Shown here: positions 1 to 1,671 of the stretch, piece by piece
Layout: the number at the start of each line of letters is the position of its first letter
Position numbering within the stretch: position 1 is the stretch's first letter
NCBI GenBank assembly: GCA_014382015.1
Contig: JACNKN010000076.1
Span: forward strand, 1 to 64,000
Direction of reading: 5' to 3'
From: Fidelibacterota bacterium
Lineage (GTDB): Bacteria; Fidelibacterota; Marinisomatia; Marinisomatales; TCS55
Length of the DNA stretch: 64,000 nucleotides
Program-made: the position numbers and the translations under genes
Notes under the pieces: model-generated
What the model was told of the DNA's origin: nothing
The model's input: only the letters and a program-made list of their open reading frames with translations
Database searches by the model: none

Positions 1-1671
1 AAATGGCGCCCACAATCTTTTGCCGATGTTATTGGACAAAACCATGTAACCCAAACATTAATTAATGCGTTTAAAAAGGATCGTGTGGCTCAAGCGTATA
101 TGCTCACAGGCCCAAGAGGTGTGGGAAAAACCACCACAGCGCGGATTATTGCAAAAGCATTAAACTGCCCCGAATCCAATGAGGGGGTTCCTTGCAATAC
201 GTGCAATAATTGCCAGGAAATAACAGATGGAAGAAATCTGGATGTATTAGAGATTGATGGAGCATCAAATCGCGGTATTGAAGAAATCCGTAATTTGCGC
301 GAACAGATTAAATATGCACCCATGAATGCATCGTATAAAATTTTTATTATTGATGAAGTGCATATGCTCACCAATCCGGCATTTAATGCGTTGCTTCGCA
401 CCTTAGAAGAACCACCACCTCATGGTAAATTTATCTTGGCCACAACAGATATTCATAAAGTACCCTCAACTATTATTTCTCGCTGCCAAAGATTTGATTT
501 TAATCGCATCACTGAGTCCACTATTTCAGAACGATTATCTATGATATTGGGTGAAGAAAAAATTTCCGCCGATGATGAATCTTTGTCAGCCATTAGCCGG
601 AAAGCAGACGGCAGTATGCGGGATGCATTAAGTCTCATGGATCAAGTTATTGCATTCTCAGGTGAAACCATAAAAATTAATGATGTGGCGGCGGTCATTG
701 GACTCATTCCAATCGATGTATTTTTTGATTATTCCACTGCTATATCTGAAAAGGATTCTGCCGGAATGATGGACGTACTCCAAAGAATCCAAACAACGGG
801 ATTACCTTTAGAAGATGTGACTCAAGGGTTGAACCAGCATTTCAGGAATTTACTCCTCAGTTTAATCGAAAAAGGTGAAGGCTTATTGGAATTAAACGAT
901 GATCATAAAAATCGATACTTAAATGGCGCTAAATCATGGAATCGTAAAGATATACTCAGAATAACTCATGTGTTGAATGAATTAGAATATTCCTTAAAAA
1001 GAGTATCGCAACCTTCCATTCTATTTGAAATGACAGCTATGAAGTTTTTAGAATTTGACACGGCAGTTTCTATCGCTAAATTGCTATCTGGGGCAGAGCC
1101 GGCGGACGTAAAAAAAAACTCCAAACCCGTTAAAAAGGTTTCCGTTGAACCAATAAAACCCGAAGTAATTGAACCGGAAGCTCCCGTTGAAGACAAAATA
1201 GTAAAAAATGTTTCTGAAGAACCAAAAGTTGAATCGGTTAAGGCGGAAAAGGTGAAACCCCGTGAAGCGCTATCTGTACCTGTTCAGAATATTACCTTTG
1301 AAGATATCGAAAAAGGATGGCTTAGATTCATTGAAAGTGTCAGGAAGGAAAGGCCATCTATTGGCACTGTATTAGAACATAGTGAGCCCTATGAACTCAC
1401 GGGAAATAAATTGCTCATTAAGGTGTATGATCTTCCCAAATTCAGTGTGGGAAGTTTGAATCGGAACAATCAGGTGATTGAAAAGTTTATCGAAGATCAT
1501 TATGGTGTTTCCTTTAAATTGGTCGCCGAGTGGCAAGAGGGGAAGGGGACCGAAAAAATTATGAATAAACCCATTCAGCCCGAAGTCGGAAATAAAAAGA
1601 CTAAAAATGTAGATGGAGACAAGGTGGTTTCCAGAGTATTAGAAGTATTTGATGGTGAAATTTTAAGATAG
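1..1671 (+). CDS. dnaX: DNA polymerase III subunit tau/gamma (5' end cut by window)
   Basis: This is the clamp-loader ATPase of the replicative polymerase. The frame is open from base 1 and begins KWRPQSFADVIGQ, the usual DnaX sequence a few residues after the start, so only a short N-terminal piece is missing; the GTG at 85 is internal. Visible motifs are Walker A (GPRGVGKTT, visible residues about 36-44), a four-cysteine zinc module (CPESNEGVPCNTCNNC), the DEVHM Walker B box and the SRC sensor motif. Domain III ends near residue 365. It is followed by a charged Lys/Pro/Glu linker and a C-terminal tau-like domain from about residue 430. An A9 run lies exactly at the end of domain III. The ybaB and recR genes follow closely, a common bacterial order. 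Confidence 0.97.
   Translation, partial: KWRPQSFADVIGQNHVTQTLINAFKKDRVAQAYMLTGPRGVGKTTTARIIAKALNCPESNEGVPCNTCNNCQEITDGRNLDVLEIDGASNRGIEEIRNLREQIKYAPMNASYKIFIIDEVHMLTNPAFNALLRTLEEPPPHGKFILATTDIHKVPSTIISRCQRFDFNRITESTISERLSMILGEEKISADDESLSAISRKADGSMRDALSLMDQVIAFSGETIKINDVAAVIGLIPIDVFFDYSTAISEKDSAGMMDVLQRIQTTGLPLEDVTQGLNQHFRNLLLSLIEKGEGLLELNDDHKNRYLNGAKSWNRKDILRITHVLNELEYSLKRVSQPSILFEMTAMKFLEFDTAVSIAKLLSGAEPADVKKNSKPVKKVSVEPIKPEVIEPEAPVEDKIVKNVSEEPKVESVKAEKVKPREALSVPVQNITFEDIEKGWLRFIESVRKERPSIGTVLEHSEPYELTGNKLLIKVYDLPKFSVGSLNRNNQVIEKFIEDHYGVSFKLVAEWQEGKGTEKIMNKPIQPEVGNKKTKNVDGDKVVSRVLEVFDGEILR
1108..1133 (+). promoter_or_regulatory. A9 slippage site in dnaX with immediate -1-frame stop
   Basis: Nine consecutive A residues occupy 1110-1118. 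Reading one base back, or adding one A during transcription, gives Leu-Gln-Thr-Arg and then TAA at 1131-1133. The product would be a gamma-like subunit of domains I-III. Thermus thermophilus dnaX makes gamma by transcriptional slippage on a run of A residues, and E. coli does so by ribosomal frameshifting. The placement right after domain III supports the same role here; that function is inferred. Confidence 0.6.

Follow-up and report, generated by a model that had tools for sequence, protein, structure and literature searches.

A conserved nine-A run in dnaX as a predicted transcriptional slippage site in a Fidelibacterota bacterium

The dnaX gene of a Fidelibacterota bacterium, located at the start of the 64,000-nucleotide stretch of DNA analyzed here (the window), carries a run of nine A residues that is conserved beyond what codon usage and control A9 sites would predict, and that is accompanied by an adjacent stop codon in the -1 frame. 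This pattern supports the earlier proposal that the run is a slippage site, and we consider it probable (roughly 0.6) that it has been selected as a site of RNA polymerase slippage, which would let a single open reading frame supply two clamp-loader subunits. According to the mechanism we propose, RNA polymerase would realign on the nine A's, adding A's and, less often, dropping them. Transcripts with 9+3n A's would encode full tau, and the others would lead to a nearby out-of-frame stop, generating a gamma-like DnaX that comprises the ATPase domains and domain III but lacks the tau C-terminal domain.

Organization of dnaX around the A-run

The dnaX frame spans 556 codons and is uninterrupted in the zero frame (Table 1). 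Position 1 of the window is the edge of a contig and falls within the gene, so that approximately 8 N-terminal residues of DnaX are cut off (homologues begin MSYQVLSL). The gene is divided between two contigs, with a 24-residue match to the DnaX N-terminus at the edge of contig C58 (G000:C58:2-73, minus strand). The genes that lie 3' of dnaX are presumably ebfC (YbaB), recR, pgsA, pgpA, cinA and recA. Among the Marinimicrobia hits for dnaX, record DBZZ01000073.1, labelled Methylococcaceae bacterium UBA1147, carries a gene 61% identical to that of the window, and its sequence suggests that the record may be mislabelled.

Table 1. Features of dnaX in the window, with coordinates and supporting evidence
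Feature	Position	Strand	Evidence
dnaX (DNA polymerase III subunit gamma/tau)	1..1671	+	NCBIfam NF004046, 505 bits, residues 1-550; TIGR02397, 439 bits
ATPase, lid and domain III; common to tau and the predicted short product	34..1047	+	Pfam PF13177 12-170, PF22608 175-221, PF12169 226-349
Disordered linker, residues 367-428, run at its beginning	1099..1284	+	AlphaFold2 pLDDT <50
A9 run, predicted slippage site, GTA AAA AAA AAC	1110..1118	+	Sequence; A9/A10 in 10/11 readable same-genus genes
TAA reached after gain of one A or a -1 shift	1131..1133	+	Sequence; AAA CTC CAA ACC CGT TAA, 4 codons on
TAA reached after one A lost or two added	1154..1156	+	Sequence; about 11-12 codons on
Tau C-terminal domain (DnaX_C-like), missing from the predicted short product	1291..1536	+	Pfam PF20964, residues 431-512

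The sequence-only reading had located nine A's within dnaX at the end of domain III. The run is indeed present, in frame and within a single intact ORF, bounded by a T (1109) and a C (1119). It does follow domain III, but it starts approximately 20 residues beyond the end of the Pfam match (residue 349), at the start of the linker. An AlphaFold2 model of DnaX, taken for order versus disorder only (pTM 0.39), displays helices up to residue 362, disorder between residues 367 and 428, and a C-terminal domain that is folded from residue 433. The PF20964 match to this last domain lies under the curated cut-off of the family (E 8e-4), and the model is folded between residues 433 and 511. Since the run covers codons 370-373, a shift at this point would release a protein that keeps the ATPase domains and domain III but ends before the tau C-terminal domain.

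Both out-of-frame stops that had been predicted were found: the -1 stop is four codons away, as proposed, and the stop that follows loss of one A, expected within about 16 codons, is reached after about 12. The predicted short products are of approximately 385 residues (including the missing 8) for the TAA at 1131-1133 and of approximately 392 residues for the TAA at 1154-1156, versus approximately 564 for the full-length protein. These distances (4 codons in the -1 frame and 11 in the +1 frame) are unremarkable for the species of the window, with P values of 0.63 and 0.80, and stop nearness in this species alone was dropped as an argument.

Conservation of the run and of adjacent -1 stops

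A single A9/T9 run is found in the 64-kb window, versus 11.3 expected from dinucleotide shuffles. The 62 ORFs of the window contain one sense run of at least nine A's, versus 6.0 expected from synonymous shuffles (P=0.003); in the same shuffles A8 runs were fewer than expected (3 versus 6.2), and A6 and A7 were not depleted. Thus, long A-runs are avoided in the genes of the window, and the dnaX run goes beyond base composition or codon usage alone. Avoidance of runs of at least nine A's without depletion of A6 and A7 is the pattern reported for genomes in which A9 is prone to slippage (PMC1088944). The 2.54-Mb genome as a whole holds 46 exact A9 runs, and by our own count roughly 28 of those examined are sense runs in coding sequence. 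The presence of an A9 alone therefore proves little, rarity was dropped as a sole argument, and the case rests on conservation and on matched controls. Some of the 46 runs lie within essential-looking genes, so slippage at an A9 is not necessarily strong. G000 contigs C22 (25618-25672) and C40 (from base 1) carry terminal poly-A tails tens of bases long, which are probably assembly artefacts.

We scanned dnaX from 118 genomes of the class for A-runs, each gene having been cut where domain III ends; the relatives belong to Candidatus Marinimicrobia/Neomarinimicrobiota. The sequence-only reading had staked its proposal on conservation in close relatives, and A9 or A10 is kept in 10 of the 11 readable same-genus genes, 11 or 12 codons past the domain III anchor. 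The exception (G004) has an A7 only, and two genes that are unreadable at the run (G009 and G012) are outside the 11 counted. The protein sequence and the codon usage of the gene would predict 2.36 such runs in 11 genes (P=3e-8 under independence, an assumption that holds only loosely). Four-fold sites in nine of the genus genes are 53-72% diverged from the dnaX of the window; in these nine genes both lysines are encoded by AAA throughout, and of 56 V/I columns only the one preceding these lysines has A as its third base in every gene. In every assembled genus member that bears the run, it is in frame and the gene is intact downstream.

As matched controls, we traced five further A9 sites in coding sequence of this genome through the same genus, in genes that we take, from reading their sequences, to be polA (A9 kept in 1 of 11 relatives), mnmE (0 of 7), coaE (3 of 10), mrdA (1 of 9) and lpxC-fabZ (0 of 11). 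In total, control runs were kept in 5 of 48 cases, versus 9 of 10 relatives for dnaX (Fisher P=1.7e-6); since the relatives are not independent, P values are nominal. One mnmE row (L298) is partial, probably misaligned and without A9, and its omission changes nothing. In the lpxC-fabZ-like gene (L326-L337), the motif E-K-K-I is found in 12 of 12 genes and is written AAG AAA in 11, with A9 in the genome of the window only; from the sequences, this codon choice suggests that long A-runs are actively avoided, with the genome of the window as an exception.

Out-of-frame stops were surveyed at 19 sites with at least nine A's within the first 25 codons past domain III. A -1-frame stop is met at 0-1 codon in 16 of the 19 sites, versus 25% after other linker Lys/Asn codons, and within 4 codons in all 19, versus 52%; at the A10 sites this nearness is partly set by the protein sequence. 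The stops are reached through differing codons (CCT AAA, TTT GAA, TCT AAT, CAT GAG and AAT AAT). The capped sum of -1 stop distances is 23, versus 64 (SD 11) when downstream codons are resampled, and the corresponding sum for the +1 frame is 102 versus 119, an enrichment that is not significant (P=0.06). The window's own stops, at 4 and 11 codons, are weaker than those of its relatives.

Slippage by RNA polymerase and alternative explanations

In the accounts of Larsen et al. 2000 given in PMC1088944 and PMC5009743, dnaX of T. thermophilus undergoes transcriptional slippage on an A9 run, a case originally defined by experiment. The gene described here is alike in having nine sense-strand A's in a single-ORF dnaX whose zero frame is tau, and near stops in both other frames, from which a gamma-like short product is predicted. 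It differs in the position of the run, approximately two-thirds along the gene and just past domain III here and seven-eighths along in Thermus, in that it is the -1 stop that is conserved, and in its host, an AT-richer, uncultured marine lineage. The features of the T. thermophilus type that were found are a run of at least nine A's that follows domain III in a dnaX made of one intact ORF, stops in each of the two non-zero frames, with those of the +1 frame no closer than chance, and conservation of the run at the nucleotide level, which we take as evidence of selection. On these sequence features, the gene is a candidate member of the T. thermophilus type.

Two other arrangements of dnaX were considered and rejected. 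In E. coli, the short product arises through a -1 programmed ribosomal frameshift (PMC5009743, PMC3711429). Here too an A-rich site inside the gene, next to a -1 stop, is predicted to give a short product, and tau is the zero-frame product, but the A-run is longer and neither a stem-loop nor an upstream Shine-Dalgarno element is conserved. The heptamers at the run of the window are A_AAA_AAA and A_AAA_AAC, whereas E. coli employs A_AAA_AAG, a heptamer that is absent from this run and that, among the relatives, occupies this position in two genes of genus g7 only. Antonov et al. 2013 (PMC3711429) described dnaX genes that are split and carry A7-A10 runs, in Chlorobi (Chloroherpeton, Chlorobium) among other groups. 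Thus, the statement in the sequence-only reading that dnaX slippage is little studied in FCB bacteria was only partly right. The Chlorobi genes resemble this one as A-run-bearing dnaX of an FCB phylum with predicted slippage during transcription, but slippage is required there for the longer tau, encoded over two ORFs, and here it would shorten the product of an intact one, open in the zero frame from 1 to 1671.

We infer RNA polymerase to be the slipping agent, and likewise the existence and share of the short protein. Several observations were counted in favor of the polymerase: the genus dnaX keeps a run length of 9-10 and not 7, avoidance of A-runs sets in at A8-A9, the codon phase of the run changes between genera, the excess of -1 stops agrees with the excess of insertions over deletions on A7-A11 tracts (PMC6260861), and neither a stem-loop nor a Shine-Dalgarno element is conserved. 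Against this reading stand the lack of a significant enrichment of +1 stops, although slippage should feed both frames, the A7 of G004, the absence of the run in sister genus g8 and the unremarkable stops of the window. A ribosomal -1 frameshift on A_AAA_AAA or A_AAA_AAC, independent of helper elements, would end at the same TAA and generate the same short protein. Almost every site of the family, that of the window included, has the heptamer in the correct phase, the excess of adjacent stops is limited to the -1 frame, and the two A_AAA_AAG genes of genus g7 fit such a shift. We nonetheless regard it as unlikely, though the most serious of the alternatives: seven A's suffice for it, yet 9-10 are kept, and in E. 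coli both heptamers shift far less readily than A_AAA_AAG (PMC5009743). No conserved downstream stem-loop was detected when 60 nt were folded into pseudoknot-free structures (z of +0.30 for the window and a mean of -0.21 for the 19 sites). An upstream Shine-Dalgarno element is likewise absent from the window, and AAGGA, present in only 3 of 10 genus genes, is not conserved. A search for the 16S 3' end (anti-Shine-Dalgarno) recovered it from only two members of the genus, the genome of the window not among them, and carries little weight.

The run could also be without function, the V/I-K-K-N/K motif being kept for the protein or as an inherited accident, in which case tau would be the sole meaningful product and slippage would be noise. 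The two lysines are themselves conserved within a variable linker, A9 runs occur elsewhere in the coding sequence of this genome, and in many Marinimicrobia families domain III is followed by no nearby run. We judge this reading improbable, and somewhat more so than a ribosomal shift, since conservation at the codon level exceeds that of the protein, A9 is avoided in the genes of the window, and the -1 stops adjoin the run; in addition, control sites were lost, and most clearly so in lpxC-fabZ, where the E-K-K-I motif is kept with AAG AAA in all 11 relatives. If the tract itself slipped at the level of DNA, by mutation or by phase variation, tau could be switched off in some cells of a population; the mutability of homopolymers this long is discussed in PMC1088944. 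Against this stands the in-frame run of all assembled run-bearing members of the genus, each with an intact gene downstream. The dnaX gene, moreover, is a core replication gene and an improbable target for phase variation, and we consider such a switch highly improbable.

Distribution and significance

RNA polymerase slippage at dnaX, if it takes place, may extend past the genus. A9 or A10 runs near domain III are found in genus g7 (3 of 3) and genus g4 (4 of 5) of the same family and in one genome of another family (G134), in several codon phases across genera. The 118-genome scan revealed no run near domain III in g3, g6, sister genus g8 or most other families. On a DnaX tree built with a quick method, the run label is strongly clustered and needs at least 6 changes, with gains and losses indistinguishable. 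In genus g5 (L126, G023), GTA AAA AAA AAT, which encodes the same VKKN, is found at approximately codon 429. The linker is longer there and places the site 56 codons past domain III, and the stop pattern is the same, the -1 stop lying 1 codon on and the +1 stop 3 codons on; this site either moved with a linker insertion or arose anew. Two close sister species of genus g4 (L131/L129; G033/G028) differ, one having an A10 with an immediate -1 stop and the other no run near domain III. That A9/A10 runs occupy each of the three codon phases and differing linker positions (g1/g7, g4, G134), against a background of A9 avoidance, leads us to suggest, tentatively and with more doubt than confidence, that slippage-based gamma synthesis may be a maintained trait that was rebuilt more than once in one Marinimicrobia family. 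If true, an uncultured phylum would have recruited slippage convergently to produce a core replication subunit.

A literature search identified no paper that joins Marinimicrobia and dnaX; this appears, therefore, to be a new lineage for a known mechanism, A-runs in FCB dnaX having already been reported (PMC3711429). Published surveys mostly sought shifts that lengthen proteins (PMC1088944, PMC4066793), and would thus have missed the shortening type. Run conservation conditioned on codons, matched control runs and an adjacent out-of-frame stop are tests that could be used across bacteria. Why bacteria make a truncated gamma has long been debated. The retention of an otherwise avoided, mutable A9/A10 run over near-saturated synonymous divergence provides comparative evidence of selection on the short form of DnaX, and such selection would lie outside Proteobacteria and Thermus.
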